Shown here in pieces: positions 50,596 through 58,969 of a DNA stretch of 64,000 nt (position 1 is the first letter of the stretch; each line of letters begins with the position of its first letter). A program made the translations under genes and the position numbers. The notes under the pieces were generated by a model that was not told the origin of the DNA, did not search any database, and saw only the letters and a program-made list of their open reading frames with translations. Origin of the DNA: Fusobacterium sp. JB019 (GTDB taxonomy: Bacteria > Fusobacteriota > Fusobacteriia > Fusobacteriales > Fusobacteriaceae); the NCBI GenBank assembly GCA_030673965.1, contig JAUTCN010000002.1:1-64000 (forward strand), read 5' to 3'.

Positions 50596-51579
50596 TTAAT
50601 TGTTGAAAGAAGAAACCATAATAGCTTTTATTGAATGAAGTCTATTTTCAGCTTGATCAAAAACAACAGAGTTTTCACTTTGAAAAACCTCATCTGAAAC
50701 TTCAAGTTCTTTTGTTCCAAATTCTTTGAAAATTTCATTTCCTATATCAGTTTCTAAATCATGAAAAGCAGGAAGACAATGTAAGAATATAGCATCATTT
50801 TTAGCATAAGACATTGCTTTTTCATTTACTTGATAAGGCTTTAAAGAAGCAATTCTTTTTTTCCAAGTTTCCTTTGTTTCTCCCATTGAAACCCAAACAT
50901 CTGTATAAATAGCATCTACATCTTCTAATCCTTTTTCAACTGAATCAGTGAAAGTTAAATTAGCATTTGTTTTTTCAGATATTTTAGAACAAATATCTAT
51001 TAAATTTTTTTCAGGAAATAAATCTTTAGGAGCAACAATTCTAAAATCTAATCCTAGTTTAGCAGCACCTACCAAAAGTGAGTTAGCTACATTATTTCTT
51101 CCATCTCCAATATATGCTAATTTAACACCTTTAAGTTTTCCTTTGTGTTCTTTAATAGTTAGAAAATCTGCAATTATTTGAGTAGGATGATAACTATCAG
51201 TAAGTCCATTCCAAACAGGAACTCCAGAATAAAGAGCTAAATCCTCAACACTTTCTTGTTTATAACCTCTATATTGAATACCATCAAACATTCTTCCAAG
51301 TACTTTAGCAGTATCTTTAATAGATTCTTTTTTTCCAATCTGACTTCCTGAAGAATCAAGATATGTGGTATTAGCCCCTTGATCTGAAGCTGCAACTTCA
51401 AAGGCACATCTAGTTCTAGTTGAAGTTTTTTCAAATATAAGAGCAATATTTTTTCCAACTAATGTTTTTTCTTCCATACCTAATTTTTTATCTTTTTTTA
51501 ATTTAGCTGATAAATTTATTAAATTATTAATTTCTTCTTGTGTAAAATCTAGTAATTTTAAAAAATGTTTTTTATTCAT
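50596..51579 (-). CDS. argF: Ornithine carbamoyltransferase
   Basis: The 327-residue enzyme makes citrulline from ornithine and carbamoyl phosphate. [11 protein letters not shown] is the carbamoyl-phosphate loop, and HCLPAFHD the ornithine motif. It is last in argCJBDF; argG/argH are elsewhere. A catabolic role is possible, but the operon context says biosynthesis. Confidence 0.94.
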
Positions 51580-51597: not shown

Positions 51598-52767
51598 TTA
51601 AAATTCTTTTATAGTTTCTTCTAAAAGTTCAGCAGCTTTATCCAGTTCTTTGTAAGTAACATTTAAAGGTGGAAGTAATCTAACTGTATTATTTCCAGCT
51701 CCAACTAATAAGAAATGTTTTTCAAAAGCTTTTTTTACAAAGTCACCAACCTTTATTTTATCTTTTAATTTTAGACCAAGTAAAAGGCCCATTCCATTTA
51801 TATTTTCAAATAATTCATATTTTTCAATTAACAAATTAATTTTTCCTTTGAAATAAGAACCTTTTTTATTAACTTCAGCTAAAATATTATTTGAAGTTAA
51901 TTGATCCACAACAGTATTTGCAACTGAGCAAGCTAGGGGATTACCTCCGAAAGTTGATCCGTGATCTCCTGGTTTTAGTGTGTCAGCAGCTTTTTTTCCA
52001 ACAAGAACAGCTCCAATTGGAAATCCACCTCCAAGACCTTTAGCAACAGTTATAATATCAGGAGTTACAGAAAATTTTTGGTAGGCAAAGAATGTTCCAA
52101 GTCTACCTATTCCACATTGAACATCATCAGTTATAAGTAGAGCATTATTTATATCACATAAATTTTTAACTGTTTGTAAAAATTCAGGATCTATTTCAAT
52201 TATTCCACCTTCTCCTTGTATAAGTTCAATAATTACACCGCAAACTGTTCTATCAAACTTAGCATAAAAATCTTTTATATTATTAAATTCACATTGGACA
52301 GTTCCACCTAGGATAGGCTTATATGGAGTTTGATATTTTTCTTGTCCAGTTACAGAAAGAGCTCCTAAAGTTCTTCCATGAAAAGAGTTTTTCATATAAA
52401 GTATTTTGTTTTTATCCTTAGAGAAGTTTTTACCAAATTTTCTAGCTATTTTTAAAGCTAATTCATTTGCTTCTGTTCCACTATTACAGAAAAACACCTT
52501 GTCTAAATCTCCAAGTTTGTTTAATTTATCAGCAAGATTTAATTGCTTATCATTCCAATAAAGATTTGATATATGCATAAGAGTTTCACTTTGGTTTTTT
52601 ATAGTTTTTACAATTTCAGGATTACTATGTCCTAAACAGTTTACAGCAATTCCAGAAACAAAATCGAAATATTTTTCATTATTTATATCATAAAGATAAA
52701 CACCCTTTCCCTTTGTAAATATAGCATCAAATCTATTATATGTATTTAAAACATTGTTAGTATTCAT
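51598..52767 (-). CDS. argD: Acetylornithine aminotransferase
   Basis: The 389-residue class III PLP aminotransferase has NSFHGRTLGALSVTG, LITDDVQCGIGR and VAKGLGGGFPIGAV, where the lysine binds PLP. It converts N-acetylglutamate semialdehyde to N-acetylornithine. It sits 18 bases before argF. Confidence 0.95.
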   Translation of the reverse strand: MNTNNVLNTYNRFDAIFTKGKGVYLYDINNEKYFDFVSGIAVNCLGHSNPEIVKTIKNQSETLMHISNLYWNDKQLNLADKLNKLGDLDKVFFCNSGTEANELALKIARKFGKNFSKDKNKILYMKNSFHGRTLGALSVTGQEKYQTPYKPILGGTVQCEFNNIKDFYAKFDRTVCGVIIELIQGEGGIIEIDPEFLQTVKNLCDINNALLITDDVQCGIGRLGTFFAYQKFSVTPDIITVAKGLGGGFPIGAVLVGKKAADTLKPGDHGSTFGGNPLACSVANTVVDQLTSNNILAEVNKKGSYFKGKINLLIEKYELFENINGMGLLLGLKLKDKIKVGDFVKKAFEKHFLLVGAGNNTVRLLPPLNVTYKELDKAAELLEETIKEF

Positions 52768-52780
52768 TAAATTCCTCCCT

Positions 52781-53656
52781 TTAATTTTTTATAATTGTAG
52801 TTCCAGTATTTGAATTTGTAAATAATTCAAGAAGTAGTGAGTGATCAAGATTTCCATCAATTATATGAACATGGTCAACTCCATTTTTTAAAGAAGATAG
52901 ACATGCTTCAACCTTTGGAATCATTCCATCTGTAATAATTTTATTTTCAATAAGAGTCTTTGCTTCATGATAGTTTAAAGATTCTATTTTAGAAGAATAA
53001 TTATTAATATCAGTCATTATTCCAGGAGCATTTGTAATAAATATAAATTTATGAGCTTTTAGTTTACTAGCAATTGAGCTAGCAGCATAATCAGCATTTA
53101 TATTATAAGTATTTCCATTATTATCAATCCCAATGCTTGAAATAACAGGGATATAATCCTCTTTTATAAGTGTATATAAAATTTTAGGATTAATATCTAA
53201 GATTTCCCCTACATTTCCAATATCAATTTTTTCATTATTATCAATTATATATTTTTTTTCTGCCAGAATAAGGTTACTGTCTTTTCCACTTAGTCCAATT
53301 GAGTTTCCACCATATTTATTGATTAAAGAAACTAGGTTTTTATTAACTTTTCCAGATAAAATCATTTCAACTATTTCCATAGTTTCGTCATCAGTTACCC
53401 TGTTTCCTTTTAAGAAAACAGAATCTTTATTTAATTTTTTTAGCATCTTATTAATATCAGGTCCACCTCCATGAATAACAACTGGATGACTTCCTAATTT
53501 TTTTAAAAAGATAATATCTTTTATAAACTCATGTTTTTTATTTTCATTTACTAAAGCATTACCACCATATTTAATAACTATAATTTTTCCAACCAGATTA
53601 TTAATATGAGGAATAGCTTCAATAAAGGCATTAGTTTTAATTTCTTTTTTTTCCAT
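52781..53656 (-). CDS. argB: Acetylglutamate kinase
   Basis: The 291-residue amino-acid kinase has VIKYGGNALVN and VIHGGGPDINKML phosphate loops, and a GMIPKVEACLSSLKNGV C-terminal signature. It lacks an arginine-responsive N-terminal helix extension of any clear kind. It is third gene of the operon. Confidence 0.95.
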   Translation of the reverse strand: MEKKEIKTNAFIEAIPHINNLVGKIIVIKYGGNALVNENKKHEFIKDIIFLKKLGSHPVVIHGGGPDINKMLKKLNKDSVFLKGNRVTDDETMEIVEMILSGKVNKNLVSLINKYGGNSIGLSGKDSNLILAEKKYIIDNNEKIDIGNVGEILDINPKILYTLIKEDYIPVISSIGIDNNGNTYNINADYAASSIASKLKAHKFIFITNAPGIMTDINNYSSKIESLNYHEAKTLIENKIITDGMIPKVEACLSSLKNGVDHVHIIDGNLDHSLLLELFTNSNTGTTIIKN

Positions 53657-53667
53657 AATTTCTCCTT

Positions 53668-54885
53668 TTATGAACGATAAGAACCGTTTATTTTTACATA
53701 TTGATAGCTAAGGTCGCATCCCCATGCTTTAGCATTATATTTTCCATCTTTTAAATCAACTAAAATATTTATTTCATCTTCTTTTAAAATTTCTTTAATA
53801 TGATCTTCATTAAATGGGACTCCAGCTCCATTTTTAACAACTTGCATAGAATTTTCATTTGCGTTTAAATGGATATCAATGTTTTCTATATTAAAATCAG
53901 CTTCAGAATATCCAACAGCACATAAAATTCTTCCCCAGTTAGCATCTTCTCCAAAGAAAGCACATTTAGTTAAATTAGAAGTTATTATAGATTTTGCAAC
54001 TAATTTAGAATCTTTTTTTGTTTTCCCGTTTAATACAGAAACTTCTAAAAGTTTAGTAGCTCCTTCTCCGTCCTTTGCAATTAATTTAGCTAAAGTTTTA
54101 TTAACATAATCAAGAGCATCTTTAAATATTTTTAAATCTTCATTTTCACTATCTATTAATTTATTTTTAGCAGCTCCATTTGCCATAATAATACACATAT
54201 CATTAGTACTAGTATCTCCATCAACAGATATCATATTGAAAGTATTGTCCACACTTTCTTTAAAGATTTTTTTTAGTAATTCTTTTGAAATATTAATATC
54301 TGTAAATAAATTTCCAAGCATAGTTGCCATATTAGGATGAATCATACCTGATCCCTTTGCAATTCCAGAAAGAGTAACTGTTTTGTTATCAATTTCCATT
54401 TGAACTGTAACTTGTTTAGGGAAGGTATCAGTTGTAAGTATTGCTAAGGCAGCGTCATTTCCTCCATCCTTTGATAATTTTGTACAAATATTATTTATTC
54501 CAGAAGTTATTTTATCCATTGGAAGAGGAAGACCAATTATTCCAGTTGATTGAACAAGTACTTCTTTTGGTGAGATATTTAAATTTTTACTAACAAGTTC
54601 AGTCATTTTAATAGCATCTTCATATCCATTTTCTCCGTTACATGCATTGGCGTTTCCACTGTTTATTATTAAAGCTTGAGTGTTTGTATTTTCTATATTA
54701 GTCATACTTAAAATAACAGGTGCAGCCTTTACTTTATTTTGTGTGAAAGCTCCAGCAGCTATTGATTGTTCTTCACTATAAATTAAACATAAGTCTTTTT
54801 TTCCACTTTTTTTAAGGCCACACGATATTCCTGCAGCTTTTATTCCTTTAACTGTTGTAATAGATGCGTCTTTTAAAATTTTCAT
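53668..54885 (-). CDS. argJ: Bifunctional ornithine acetyltransferase / N-acetylglutamate synthase
   Basis: The 405-residue ArgJ recycles the acetyl group from N-acetylornithine to glutamate, giving a cyclic arginine pathway. The autocleavage site is KGSGMIHPNMATMLG, where the threonine is the nucleophile of the beta subunit. No argA or argE is nearby, consistent with the cyclic route. Confidence 0.95.
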   Translation of the reverse strand: MKILKDASITTVKGIKAAGISCGLKKSGKKDLCLIYSEEQSIAAGAFTQNKVKAAPVILSMTNIENTNTQALIINSGNANACNGENGYEDAIKMTELVSKNLNISPKEVLVQSTGIIGLPLPMDKITSGINNICTKLSKDGGNDAALAILTTDTFPKQVTVQMEIDNKTVTLSGIAKGSGMIHPNMATMLGNLFTDINISKELLKKIFKESVDNTFNMISVDGDTSTNDMCIIMANGAAKNKLIDSENEDLKIFKDALDYVNKTLAKLIAKDGEGATKLLEVSVLNGKTKKDSKLVAKSIITSNLTKCAFFGEDANWGRILCAVGYSEADFNIENIDIHLNANENSMQVVKNGAGVPFNEDHIKEILKEDEINILVDLKDGKYNAKAWGCDLSYQYVKINGSYRS

Positions 54886-54898
54886 ATGTTTCTCCTTT

Positions 54899-55939
54899 TT
54901 ATATATTCATGCCCAAATACGTTAGGCCTTCAAATTCATTAAAATTAAATAAAATATTCATGTTTTGAACTGCTTGACCTGCAGCTCCTTTTATTAAATT
55001 ATCAATAGCTGAAATAACTATTATTTTATTTGTTCTAGGATCAATTTTTAAACTGATATCACAGAAGTTACTTCCCTTTACAAATCTTGTTTCTGGAAGA
55101 TAATCTAGAACTCTAACAAAATAACTAGAGTTATAAAACTCTTTATAAATTTTTAAAATATCCTCTAAAGATTTAGAAACTTTTAAACTAGCATATGATA
55201 CTGCTAAAATTCCACGGTTCATAGGAACAAGATGTGGTGTAAATAAAGTTTTTATTTCTTTGTTTCCAATTAAAGAAAGTTCTTGTTCTATTTCAGCAGT
55301 ATGTCTATGAGTTCCAACTCCGTAAGCTTTTATAGATTCATTACATTCACAAAATAGGCTTCCTGTTTTTAAAGATCTACCAGCTCCAGAAACTCCTGAC
55401 TTAGCATCAATTATAATGGAATTAAGATCAATTAAATTATTTTTAACTAAAGGAGCAAGAGCTAGTAAACTAGCAGTTGCATAACATCCAGGATTAGCAA
55501 TTATTTTTGCTTTTTGTATTTCTTCCTTTGATTTTAATTCAGGTAAACTATATATAGAGTCCTTGATTAGTTCAGGGAAATTAAATTTTATTTTATACCA
55601 ATTGGAGAAAATTTCAGGATCAGTTAATCTAAAATCAGCTCCAAGATCAATTACTTTAACATTATTTTCTACAGCTAATTTTACTAAATTAGCAGATTTT
55701 CCATGAGGAAGAGCTAAAAATAAAACATCAATATTTTTAAGATTTTTAGAAGCTTCTTCAGGGGATATAAGTTTAGAGTCCAACCTGTATTTAAAGTTAG
55801 GATAAATTTCACTAAATTTTTCACCAAAATAGCTATTAGAAGCCATAAATTCAATTTTTACAAATTTGTGGTTTACTAGTAACCAAACAAGTTGTTGCCC
55901 TGCATATCCAGTAGCTCCAATGATTCCTACTTTTAACAT
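54899..55939 (-). CDS. argC: N-acetyl-gamma-glutamyl-phosphate reductase
   Basis: The 346-residue NADP enzyme has GATGYAGQQLVWLL nucleotide fold and NPGCYATASLLAL with catalytic cysteine. First structural gene of the operon, its ATG follows TAGGAGG directly after two tandem terminators. Confidence 0.95.
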   Translation of the reverse strand: MLKVGIIGATGYAGQQLVWLLVNHKFVKIEFMASNSYFGEKFSEIYPNFKYRLDSKLISPEEASKNLKNIDVLFLALPHGKSANLVKLAVENNVKVIDLGADFRLTDPEIFSNWYKIKFNFPELIKDSIYSLPELKSKEEIQKAKIIANPGCYATASLLALAPLVKNNLIDLNSIIIDAKSGVSGAGRSLKTGSLFCECNESIKAYGVGTHRHTAEIEQELSLIGNKEIKTLFTPHLVPMNRGILAVSYASLKVSKSLEDILKIYKEFYNSSYFVRVLDYLPETRFVKGSNFCDISLKIDPRTNKIIVISAIDNLIKGAAGQAVQNMNILFNFNEFEGLTYLGMNI

Positions 55940-55952
55940 TTTAACCTCCTAC

Positions 55953-56029
55953 AAAAAAAACCAGTGATTTAGATATTATTCTAAATACACTGGTTCAAAT
56001 AAAAAAAGCCAACATAAGGGAATGTTGGC
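55953..56029 (-). terminator. Tandem leader terminators (attenuator) before argC
   Basis: Transcribed leftward, hairpin 1 is GCCAACAT/ATGTTGGC (56029-56008) with a seven-T run. Hairpin 2 is AACCAGTG, ATTTAGA and their complements (55995-55959) followed by T8. Both lie between the leader peptide and argC, so they should stop transcription unless overridden. Confidence 0.85.
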
Positions 56030-56077
56030 AAAACAAATCTAATAATTTTGTTAATTATAAAAAAGTAAATTAAAAAA

Positions 56078-56155
56078 TTATGACGTTAATCGAACATTCA
56101 GAATAATAGTTTTATTATGTTTAGTCATTATCCTGAAATTCCTTAGTAACATCAT
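56078..56155 (-). CDS. arg operon leader peptide, 25 residues
   Basis: AAGGAGG lies five bases before tandem ATG codons at 56155 and 56152. The peptide begins MMLLRNFRIMTKHNK and ends VRLTS. Arginines at 5, 8 and 22 are coded by AGG, AGG and CGA, rare codons in a genome that mainly uses AGA. It stands between a perfect TTGACA promoter and two terminators, the layout of ribosome-mediated attenuation. Arginine sensing is inferred. Confidence 0.7.
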   Translation of the reverse strand: MMLLRNFRIMTKHNKTIILNVRLTS

Positions 56156-56185
56156 GTTTTCCTCCTTTTAATTTATTTGATTAGG

Positions 56186-56214
56186 ATATTAACACAAAAA
56201 GATTATCCTGTCAA
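56186..56214 (-). promoter_or_regulatory. Promoter of the arg operon
   Basis: On the minus strand TTGACA (56214-56209) and TAATAT (56191-56186) are 17 bases apart, about 30 bases before the leader peptide start. Confidence 0.75.
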
Positions 56215-56245: not shown

Positions 56246-57772
56246 TTAATTAAGTGATTTTATAAAGGTTTCAAAGGCGTTATTTCCATTGATATCATTT
56301 TTGAAAACTCCTGCATTTTCAAGAACTTTAGAAAAGATTAAGCCTATTTCTTCCTGTAAGATATTTTCAATATTATTTTTATTTAACTTGTTATTATATT
56401 TTTTTAATAAAGTTTCACACCATTTAACGTGTTTTGAAACTTTTGTATTATTTTTTATTAAATTAATCGAATCATTTTTAAGTAAAAGTTCCATAAGAAT
56501 TGAAATTTCTTCCTTTAATCTTCCTGGTAAAACAGCAAGTCCCATAACTTCAATAAGTCCAATATTTTCTTTTTTTATATGATGAAGTTCTTCATGGGGA
56601 TGAAATATTCCTAAAGGATATTTTTCAGATGTTCTATTGTTTCTTAAAACAAGATCTAACTCATATTCATCATCTTTTTTTCTTGCTATTGGAGTTATTG
56701 TATTGTGAGGAGTCTCATTTGAAAAAGCTAAGATATCACATTTAGGATCTGAATAATTTTTCCATTTTATAAAGATTTTATTAGCTAATTCTATTAGAGC
56801 TTTTTTATCTTTTCCTCTAAGTCTTATAACACTCATAGGCCATTTTACTTTTTCAACTTGAATATTTTCATAATTTTTTATAGTAAAAGTTTTTTCTTTA
56901 GAAGCTATTGCCATTGGAAAATCATGACATCCCCCTTGGAAATGTTCATGGCTTAATATAGAACCTCCGACGATAGGTAAATCAGCATTTGAACCAATGA
57001 AATAATGAGGGAAGATATCTATAAAATCAAATAATTTTTCAAAAGTATCTTTATTTATTTTCATAGGATTATGTTCTCCAGAAAGAACAATGCAATGCTC
57101 ATTATAATATACATATGGAGAATACTGTAAGAACCAAGCTTCATTTTCTAAACTTATTGGAATTATCCTATGATTTTGTCTTGCAGGATGATTTAGATTT
57201 CCTGAATATCCAACATTTTCTTTACAAAGAAGACATTTTGGATAAGAAGAAGATTTAATAAGTTTAGCCTTTGCTATATCCCTTGGATCTTTTTCAGGTT
57301 TAGAAAGATTAATAGTTATTTCTAAATTTCCATATTCTGTTTTAGATAGCCAGTGAAGATTTTTTTCTATTCTATCCATTCTTATATAATTTGTATTTTG
57401 AGAAAACTCATAATAATTACTAGTGGCTAATTTTGGTGAAACTTCATAGTCTTTTTTAAATTTTTTGGTTATGTCACTTGGTTTTAAAATAAATTCTCCC
57501 ATTATTTTAGTATCAAATAAATCTCTCTGGCTAGTAGTATCTTCTATTAGTTTATTTTCCACAGCGAAATCACAAATTTTATTTAAAATTTTATGGATAG
57601 GTTTTTTTTCAAATATTATTGGTTGTAAAGAACTTATGTCTATAGAGTCTATTTTCAAAATATTATAAACTTTATTTCTAAAATAAGAGAAATCTTCTTT
57701 TTCAATAAAATTAACATGTAGGGCGTAGTCTAGTAAGTTTTCAATTTCTAAATAAATATTTTTATTATTCAC
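56246..57772 (-). CDS. galT: UDP-glucose-hexose-1-phosphate uridylyltransferase, class II
   Basis: The 508-residue enzyme is the Firmicutes-type GalT of the Leloir pathway. The conserved HPARQNHRIIPI and SHEHFQGG carry substrate-binding and nucleophilic histidines. GTG start at 57772 overlaps the galK stop by one base and has AGGTGA before it, so translation is coupled. Confidence 0.92.
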   Translation of the reverse strand: MNNKNIYLEIENLLDYALHVNFIEKEDFSYFRNKVYNILKIDSIDISSLQPIIFEKKPIHKILNKICDFAVENKLIEDTTSQRDLFDTKIMGEFILKPSDITKKFKKDYEVSPKLATSNYYEFSQNTNYIRMDRIEKNLHWLSKTEYGNLEITINLSKPEKDPRDIAKAKLIKSSSYPKCLLCKENVGYSGNLNHPARQNHRIIPISLENEAWFLQYSPYVYYNEHCIVLSGEHNPMKINKDTFEKLFDFIDIFPHYFIGSNADLPIVGGSILSHEHFQGGCHDFPMAIASKEKTFTIKNYENIQVEKVKWPMSVIRLRGKDKKALIELANKIFIKWKNYSDPKCDILAFSNETPHNTITPIARKKDDEYELDLVLRNNRTSEKYPLGIFHPHEELHHIKKENIGLIEVMGLAVLPGRLKEEISILMELLLKNDSINLIKNNTKVSKHVKWCETLLKKYNNKLNKNNIENILQEEIGLIFSKVLENAGVFKNDINGNNAFETFIKSLN

Positions 57773-58947
57773 TATAAATCACCTAGCTTTTTAGAGCCAT
57801 CCCCAATATTTGCAATATAAAAATCAGCAGCAAGTCCTGTTTCTTCTTTATATTTTTTTCCAACATTTTTAATAAATTCATCTATAGAATCATTTTTAAC
57901 TATACTTACAGCACATCCACCAAATCCAGCTCCAGTCATTCTAGCACCAATTGTTCCAGGTTCTTTCCAAGCAAATTTTACAATAGAATCAAGTTCAAAT
58001 CCAGTAACTTCATAATTATCTCTAAGGGAAATATGAGATTCATTCATCAATTTTCCAAAAGTTTCAATATCATTTTTTTTAAGTGCTTTAATACTATTTA
58101 AAACTCTTTCATTTTCACTAACAGCGTGGGTAGCTCTAAGTAATGCTTCTTCAGATTTTATAAAATGCTTAACTTCTTCAAATTCTTTTAATGAAAGATC
58201 ACATAAATTATTAATATTAACATTAGAATTTTGTAAATCTTTTAAAGCTTCTTCACATGAATTTCTTCTTTCATTGTATTTAGAATCTGCAAGACCTCTT
58301 CTTTTATTAGTATTCATAATGACAATTGAAGCATTTTCAAGAGAAATAGGAGCATATTCATAGTCTAAAGTATCACAATTAAGTAAAATAGCATGATCTT
58401 TTTTTCCCATTCCCACAGCAAATTGATCCATAATTCCACAACTAACTCCTATAAATTCATTTTCAGCTTTTTGAGAATATTTAACAATATCAACCATAGG
58501 AATATTTAAATTAAAAGTTGTATTTAAAATAGTTCCCATTAAAACTTCTAAGGAAGCTGAAGAAGATAAACCAGCACCATTTGGAATATTTCCATAAAAG
58601 ACGATATCTAAACCAAAAGGGATATTAAAATTATTGTCTTTTATTACTTTGATTACTCCTTTACAATAATCACCCCACACATCAGTCTTTATTAATTCAT
58701 TAATATTAAAATTAATTATGTTATCCTCAGGAAAGTTAATAGAAAATAAATTAAAGTTTTGGTCTTCTCTTTTTCTACAAATAGCATAAGTACCAAAACT
58801 TAAAGCACAAGGAAAAACAAATCCCCCGTTATAATCAATATGTTCTCCAATTAAATTAACTCTTCCAGGAGTAAAATAAAACTCTTTATTTTCTAAATTT
58901 CCAAATAATTCTTGGAATTTAACAAGCATTAGATTTTTAATATCCAT
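57772..58947 (-). CDS. galK: Galactokinase
   Basis: The 391-residue GHMP kinase phosphorylates galactose. Motifs are the galactokinase signature GRVNLIGEHIDYNGG, ATP loop GAGLSSSASLEV and GARMTGAGFGGCAVS. A GTG at 58953 would add two residues, but ATG at 58947 follows GGAGGG. Confidence 0.95.
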   Translation of the reverse strand: MDIKNLMLVKFQELFGNLENKEFYFTPGRVNLIGEHIDYNGGFVFPCALSFGTYAICRKREDQNFNLFSINFPEDNIINFNINELIKTDVWGDYCKGVIKVIKDNNFNIPFGLDIVFYGNIPNGAGLSSSASLEVLMGTILNTTFNLNIPMVDIVKYSQKAENEFIGVSCGIMDQFAVGMGKKDHAILLNCDTLDYEYAPISLENASIVIMNTNKRRGLADSKYNERRNSCEEALKDLQNSNVNINNLCDLSLKEFEEVKHFIKSEEALLRATHAVSENERVLNSIKALKKNDIETFGKLMNESHISLRDNYEVTGFELDSIVKFAWKEPGTIGARMTGAGFGGCAVSIVKNDSIDEFIKNVGKKYKEETGLAADFYIANIGDGSKKLGDL

Positions 58948-58969
58948 TTTCACCCTCCTAAATTATATA

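Follow-up and report, generated by a model that had tools for sequence, protein, structure and literature searches.

The regulatory region of the arginine biosynthesis operon of Fusobacterium sp. JB019 was analysed in a window of 64 000 nucleotides, i.e. the whole stretch of contig JAUTCN010000002.1 from position 1 to position 64 000. The region sits on the minus strand between galT, which ends at 56246, and argC, which starts at 55939. A preliminary description of this DNA had placed a leader ahead of argCJBDF, and all five downstream genes were confirmed with NCBIfam models. Directly upstream of the arg promoter, galT and galK-like open reading frames (ORFs), both with GTG starts, occupy 56246–58953 on the minus strand. 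The features are listed in the order of transcription.

56186–56214, minus strand: sigma-70-type promoter, TTGACA (56214–56209), 17 nt, TAATAT (56191–56186), 10 of 12 consensus matches
56161–56168, minus strand: Shine–Dalgarno sequence AAAGGAGG of the leader ORF
56078–56155, minus strand: leader peptide ORF, MMLLRNFRIMTKHNKTIILNVRLTS and stop codon, 25 amino acids
56127–56137, minus strand: arm 1, UUCAGGAUAAU, overlapping the second AGG codon; partner in arm 2, AUUAUUCUGAA (from folds, and covariation in relatives)
56093–56108, minus strand: arm 2 (anti-arm), of which GAAUGUU (56099–56093) pairs with terminator 1
56008–56029, minus strand: terminator 1 (arms 3:4), GCCAACAU-UCCCUU-AUGUUGGC, then seven U
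55958–55996, minus strand: terminator 2, bulged stem of 16 pairs, then a U run (folding, −17.9 kcal/mol)
55945–55950, minus strand: Shine–Dalgarno sequence AGGAGG of argC
54899–55939, minus strand: argC, N-acetyl-gamma-glutamyl-phosphate reductase (TIGR01850, 426 bits, cut-off 233.6)
53668–54885, minus strand: argJ (NF003802, 513 bits, cut-off 351)
52781–53656, minus strand: argB, acetylglutamate kinase (TIGR00761, 250 bits, cut-off 151.3)
51598–52767, minus strand: argD, acetylornithine transaminase (TIGR00707, 472 bits, cut-off 410)
50596–51579, minus strand: argF, ornithine carbamoyltransferase (TIGR00658, 431 bits, cut-off 280.85)

The TTGACA promoter, the 25-residue peptide with AGG, AGG and CGA codons and the two tandem terminators of the preliminary description were thus all recovered, terminator 1 by a consensus scanner and by folding and terminator 2 by folding. 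A TG precedes the −10 element, and transcription is expected to start near 56179. The scanner returned two sites (0.2 expected on both strands of 1.2 kb), one being terminator 1 and the other lying elsewhere; terminator 2 was missed because its stem has a bulge. Folding also gave the antiterminator that had been suggested to overlap 56008–56029: the GAAUGUU of arm 2 pairs with AACAUUC (56026–56020) in terminator 1. The 5′ part of arm 2, UAUUAUUCUGAAU (56108–56096), can pair with terminator 2, where AUUUAGAAUAAUA (55986–55974) is able to form the duplex.

The arginine codons of the leader ORF are codon 5 (AGG, 56143–56141), codon 8 (AGG, 56134–56132) and codon 22 (CGA, 56092–56090). In the long ORFs of the window, 2.7% of all codons specify arginine. 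AGG and CGA, which had been described as rare, are indeed uncommon there (30 and 2 of 455 arginine codons), since 396 of the 455 are AGA. This commonest codon is missing from the leader, which with three codons has a probability of 0.002 by chance. Three arginines in 25 codons are mildly unusual for one sequence (P = 0.029), so the window sequence is by itself suggestive only. Unlike it, the comparative evidence given below makes a compelling case, at the level of sequence, for a putative arginine leader peptide.

ArgC was searched at E values up to 1e-60 and matched in 31 of 98 Fusobacteriota genomes. The DNA 5′ of argC was read in 30 loci and the region of G062 was scanned. A second, distant ArgC-like frame of this genome (G000:C12:5220–5696, L002) is 38% identical over query residues 3–188; it is carried by a contig of 5.9 kb, and the assembly is listed with 4% contamination. 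The comparison across Fusobacteria that the preliminary description had called for showed that the arginine reading frame is kept: a Shine–Dalgarno sequence and a short ORF with a run of arginine codons are found upstream of argC in 26 of the 31 ArgC-bearing genomes. The peptides include a close homologue from the same genus, MMLLRHFRIINKYNRNYYSECSTRDHDFLT (locus L003), as well as MMLLRHFRIINKYNRN (same genus), MMFRISRTRRQIKNQYKSF (Ilyobacter group) and, from a second family that we take to be Leptotrichiaceae, MKMIRRIRDNRIAAQF and MIKFIRRIRERNFRIKYPCHD. All 26 leaders are followed by terminator 1 and then by a second hairpin with a T run, which is weak in one genus (−6.6 to −7.1 kcal/mol, five loci). 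No leader was present directly before argC in the five other loci (L007, L008, L011, L031 and G062); in L007, L008 and L011, argG and argH precede argC. Outside the phylum (L032–L041), no comparable leader was seen by eye among the candidates listed. The argC region of one Fusobacteriota genome is identical to NC_014633.1 (Ilyobacter polytropus DSM 2926), where the arginine leader is unannotated in a plasmid gene table said to be incomplete.

In the peptides of 17 representative argC leaders, arginine was enriched 6.5-fold relative to the proteins of the window, followed by cysteine at 1.6-fold. The enrichment is confined to one frame: 50 leaders of the argC and argG types (the latter are described below) contain 165 arginine codons in frame, vs. 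24 and 12 in the two other frames. The in-frame codons are 107 AGG, 55 AGA, 2 CGA and 1 CGT.

The pairings were analysed in 18 relatives, in which arm 1, comprising the Shine–Dalgarno sequence, the start codon and the arginine codons, forms a helix with arm 2 farther downstream, ahead of terminator 1. For arm 1:arm 2 and terminator 1 together, 96.5% of the cells pair, and both sides are changed in 12 of 34 pairs. The covariation score was 0.379 vs. 0.220 for shuffled data (0 of 500 as high); slid controls gave 0.06–0.10, a comparison that favours the structure because RNAalifold itself proposed it. In the window, arm 2 was compared with its own shuffles and gave P = 0.002 with terminator 1 and P = 0.004 with terminator 2. 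When partners were permuted among 17 representatives, the observed summed duplex energy was reached in 5 of 20 000 permutations for terminator 1 and in 0 of 20 000 for terminator 2. Arm 2 matches the terminators of its own leader more closely than those from other lineages. Control segments farther downstream (10 loci) gave mean z values of 0.11 and 0.13. Taken locus by locus, the shuffles reached P < 0.05 in only 5 of 17 cases for terminator 1 and 4 of 17 for terminator 2.

Several search models were discarded. A covariance model built from 18 leaders, mainly of one family, found the window's leader only at an E value of 1.5 and pointed to an unrelated place in this genome (150 of 4500 candidates scored). 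A leader pattern from one family matched all 17 argC leaders of that family and 16 other places; four of these 16 were read, and all lay in or over genes. When both families were aligned together with MAFFT, arms 1 and 2 were misaligned, so RNAalifold on the joint alignment gave terminator 1 only.

The effect of a ribosome on these pairings was simulated. Transcripts were folded up to the loop of terminator 1, and bases covered by the ribosome (assumed footprint, from 14 nt upstream to 17 nt downstream of the first P-site base) were barred from pairing. The stall was placed at the best arginine codon between positions 3 and 14, and the readout was the pairing between the arm-2 region and the 5′ arm of terminator 1. 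In the 26 argC leaders, the mean antiterminator pairing was 0.14 without ribosome, 0.57 with the ribosome stalled at arginine and 0.08 with the ribosome at the stop codon. Relative to no ribosome, the arginine stall gave a higher value in 24 of the 26 and a lower value in none. For the window's leader the three values were 0.08, 0.71 and 0.08. The gain on stalling was 0.43 with the real sequences vs. 0.18 with arm 2 shuffled. Effective stall positions were codons 3 to about 13, and in 17 representatives arginine occupied 41 of 102 effective vs. 23 of 240 ineffective codons; the Fisher P value (2e-10) is overstated, and the P values of the simulation are not independent tests, because the loci are related. 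Codons adjoining the arginine codons were equally effective, so a specificity for arginine does not follow from the fold by itself. No switch was seen in the simulation for the candidate leaders of G039, G040 and L044/L045.

Folding at equilibrium with the complete hairpin gave another picture. Terminator 1 formed in nearly every ribosome state, the window's leader included, and a clear switch was seen only in L004 and L006; L005, L022 and L023 showed a drop at the stop codon instead, the opposite of the model. Since the complete terminator 1 wins at equilibrium, the switch can work in the model only if the antiterminator forms earlier, and the model rests on the order of synthesis. Classical attenuators rest on it likewise.

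Terminator 2 was treated in the same way. Once terminator 1 is passed, its pairing with arm 2 in the window's leader was 0.01 without ribosome, 0.61 on arginine stall and 0.00 at the stop codon, and it was nested outside the first pairing. Stalling raised this pairing in 10 of the 26 leaders and lowered it in 5; a rise was seen in 8 Fusobacteriaceae leaders (f1 groups L001–L010 and L024) and failed in most leaders of the other family. On these counts, the hypothesis that terminator 2 is jointly controlled is plausible here, for Fusobacteriaceae leaders only, and is not general.

Two arginine leaders in series, each followed by a terminator, precede argC in G053 (L024), G055 (L009) and G057 (L010). 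Both leaders of each pair simulate as switches, and the pairs may act as double attenuators. In G044 (L043, 2290–2700), the DNA upstream of argH-argG-argC contains a kink-turn-like element (see below) and two terminators with no clear first leader; a later Shine–Dalgarno sequence is followed by ATA and an arginine-containing frame, perhaps a decayed leader.

Arginine leaders were also found before other operons. A second one in this genome (G000:C8:132593; L127, 3294 onward), beginning with MLLVMNLRSRRFHKNEYSSFF, has a Shine–Dalgarno sequence and a terminator. The genes behind it encode a protein of the lysine/arginine/ornithine-binding family (188 bits against TIGR01096, under the cut-off of 256) and then ArgG. 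It simulates at 0.26, 0.94 and 0.28 (no ribosome, arginine stall and stop codon), and 0 of 25 shuffles reached it. ArgG was found in 66 of the 98 genomes and 58 upstream regions were scanned. An ORF with a Shine–Dalgarno sequence, at least three arginines and a terminator was present in 13 of 58 on the sense strand and in 0 of 58 on the antisense strand; with two arginines in the first 16 codons, the numbers were 26 and 1 of 58. Matches in L153, L165 and L171 were judged to be due to chance. Eighteen argG-type leaders, the second leader of this genome among them, simulate at 0.22, 0.67 and 0.20.

A pattern search of the 98 genomes was noisy, the backwards control also giving matches. At least 14 further leaders were picked by eye among the matches listed (MLRNFRIR..., MIRRFRIR..., MFFSKLRIR...), 12 of the 14 in genomes with no ArgC match. 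They mostly precede ABC importer operons with a protein of the lysine/arginine/ornithine-binding family, or an amidohydrolase gene together with a gene for such a protein. Twenty-two leaders of transporter and hydrolase operons were entered in the simulation, and four with no terminator detected by the script were left out of the mean; the 18 others gave 0.26, 0.61 and 0.15, with pairing up in 16 and down in 0. A tally over the argC, argG and transporter leaders gave about 55 of the 98 genomes with at least one arginine leader. In L228, L241 and L243 (G027–G029), a leader of sequence MLLRHERHGISNL or MLLRRESQGISNL precedes an antiporter-like gene, which matches a Na+/H+ antiporter model weakly and perhaps encodes an arginine/ornithine antiporter.

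Many Fusobacteriaceae arginine leaders carry an additional element between arm 2 and the terminator, GMAAAGAUU-variable hairpin-AUGAGYAUA, which in our estimation resembles the kink-turn consensus. Its pattern was found at 37 places in the 98 genomes vs. 3 for the backwards control, and in a pattern search of this genome it gave 0 matches. Thirty loci were fetched and six were set aside: L220, L227, L239 and L240 were judged to lie in genes, and L219 and L231 had a gap too short for the hairpin and no leader. In 23 of the 24 retained loci an arginine leader is present upstream of the element (82–98 nt where measured); L248 was retained with no arginine leader upstream. Its stem shows covariation: of 23 distinct copies, 22 have all five tested positions paired. 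The element loci are L004–L006, L009, L010, L024, L205–L208, L210 and most of L221–L247.

Known regulators were then searched for. An ArgR site had been named in the preliminary description as another possible explanation of the control. A profile search of this genome with PF01316 (ArgR) gave no match, while 9 of 14 control genomes matched. In the order, 0 of 96 genomes pass the cut-off, G050 having a weak match below it. Over the 98 genomes of the phylum, any match was obtained in three, and the cut-off was passed by one (G097, another family of the class). In this distant class member, a 326 aa open frame (G097:C2:618–1247; L051, L054) has two matches to the Arg_repressor domain and is possibly a fused ArgR pair. 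No Rfam family matched in the window at gathering thresholds, and none matched in 16 argC loci up to an E value of 0.5, so no T-box and no known riboswitch was detected; in this the statement that no T-box sequence is present held.

What computation showed is thus the ORF with its codon bias and conservation, the pairings, and the direction in which the switch is predicted to act. We consider it likely (probability about 0.87) that the leader is a ribosome-mediated transcription attenuator reading the supply of charged tRNA-Arg, in a Fusobacteriota arginine regulon where it would replace ArgR. Such an attenuation by arginine had been put forward in the preliminary description; the conserved arginine frame, the absence of ArgR and the antiterminator pairing, all of them computational, support it. 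From these results we infer translation of the leader, ribosome stalling, tRNA sensing, read-through and any effect in vivo. RNA polymerase would start near 56179 and a ribosome would begin the leader ORF. With ample arginine, the ribosome would pass the AGG codons and reach the stop codon or leave; arm 2 would then be covered or paired again with arm 1, terminator 1 (and 2) would fold and the transcript would end ahead of argC. Under arginine shortage, a stall at AGG codon 5 or 8 would place the ribosome over arm 1. Arm 2, thus freed, would capture the 5′ arm of terminator 1 while the 3′ arm is still to be made, and the polymerase would continue into argCJBDF. For the window's leader, a further duplex may then form between the 5′ part of arm 2 and terminator 2 (5′ arm and loop), enclosing the first one. 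Leader peptides would stand in the Fusobacteriota arginine regulon where ArgR stands elsewhere. A wider proposal is made tentatively, at somewhat less than even odds: the whole Fusobacteriota arginine regulon (synthesis, argG, arginine-type ABC importers, and related hydrolase and antiporter operons) would be controlled by arginine leader-peptide attenuation replacing ArgR and, in addition, the anti-arm of Fusobacteriaceae argC leaders would, through nested pairing, inactivate one terminator after the other, with terminator 2 mimicking the arm that holds the arginine codons.

Other mechanisms could produce some of these observations. SpeFL and TnaC are arrest peptides that stall the ribosome by a ligand in the exit tunnel. 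If the nascent leader similarly bound arginine or ornithine there, the signal would be the free ligand, not tRNA charging; a short arginine-containing ORF before the genes fits this, as does the recurrence of LR[NSQ]R[KR] and RRIRE cores within lineages. However, outside arginine the peptides vary widely between families and between the operons of one genome, and arrest is disfavoured because a binding peptide should keep more than arginine. Moreover, if excess arginine caused the stall at these codons, the genes would be switched on, the wrong response for a biosynthetic operon. An arrest peptide therefore has a slim chance of being the right explanation. It is very unlikely that the RNA itself contains an aptamer sensing arginine, the ORF being incidental. 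The covarying helices are well conserved, and so is the kink-turn-like element in many related leaders, as would be expected of a riboswitch, but that element has no match in this genome, Rfam gave no match in the window or in the 16 argC loci, and we saw no sequence core shared by the two arginine leaders of this genome. The feature common to all leaders is the in-frame arginine codons.

Attenuation might also be absent, the promoter being constitutive or under a factor other than ArgR and ordinary terminators insulating the upstream galT. Intergenic terminators are common and galT ends just upstream at 56246, but the combination of leader and terminators is also seen at argC loci with other neighbouring genes, and ahead of further arginine operons. 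Insulation is further disfavoured by the position of the promoter: it is downstream of galT and upstream of the terminators, so that these would block transcription from the operon's own promoter, and we regard this explanation as highly improbable. A T-box, in which uncharged tRNA-Arg binds the leader directly, can practically be dismissed. The available part of PMC1262725 names T-boxes as the means by which arginine genes are controlled at the RNA level in other bacteria, but the Rfam searches described above yielded none in the window or in the 16 loci, and in the available part of PMC2494555 the survey lists 0 T-boxes for 2 Fusobacteria/Thermotogae genomes.

The attenuator proposed here resembles the trp, his, leu, ilv, thr and phe attenuators: a Shine–Dalgarno sequence and a short ORF rich in codons for the amino acid of the pathway, mutually exclusive arms (1:2, 2:3 and 3:4), a terminator before the first structural gene, and a stop codon at a position where a ribosome that has completed the peptide precludes antitermination. 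It differs by the tandem terminators after all 26 argC leaders, by serving transport too, by the phylum, Fusobacteriota, and by the amino acid, since PMC1262725, in its available part, puts arginine under T-boxes, not attenuators, and lists attenuators for histidine, threonine and phenylalanine. The Salmonella speF leader also reads the arginine level via a leader and alternative mRNA conformations, but according to the part available it controls ornithine decarboxylase for polyamines and not an arginine operon (PMC6386406). In Staphylococcus aureus rbfL, a short ORF with AGA and AGG likewise senses arginine limitation by ribosome pausing; as described in the available part of PMC13009471, stalling there closes off a ribosome-binding site, and translation of a biofilm regulator falls; a terminator switch is not involved. 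Control by ArgR and ARG boxes has the same target genes, but ArgR is absent here and none is above cut-off in the order. The accessible portion of a screen including Fusobacteria genomes (PMC8632094) contains no arginine-operon leader, and that of PMC9026213 contains nothing on control. No published description of an arginine-operon attenuator in bacteria was found in searches of an open-access library; novelty is provisional because most subscription papers lie outside this coverage. As far as the literature was found, the attenuator is thus provisionally new for arginine operons and classical in mechanism.

Arginine is a textbook case of repressor control in bacteria. A phylum without ArgR appears to use translation as the sensor for arginine synthesis and uptake, and control of arg genes without ArgR becomes directly testable. 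If terminator 2 does obey the same anti-arm, this would be an unusual two-step attenuator. The arginine leader also marks out, among the numerous polar-amino-acid ABC systems of these bacteria, those that can be named arginine transporters.
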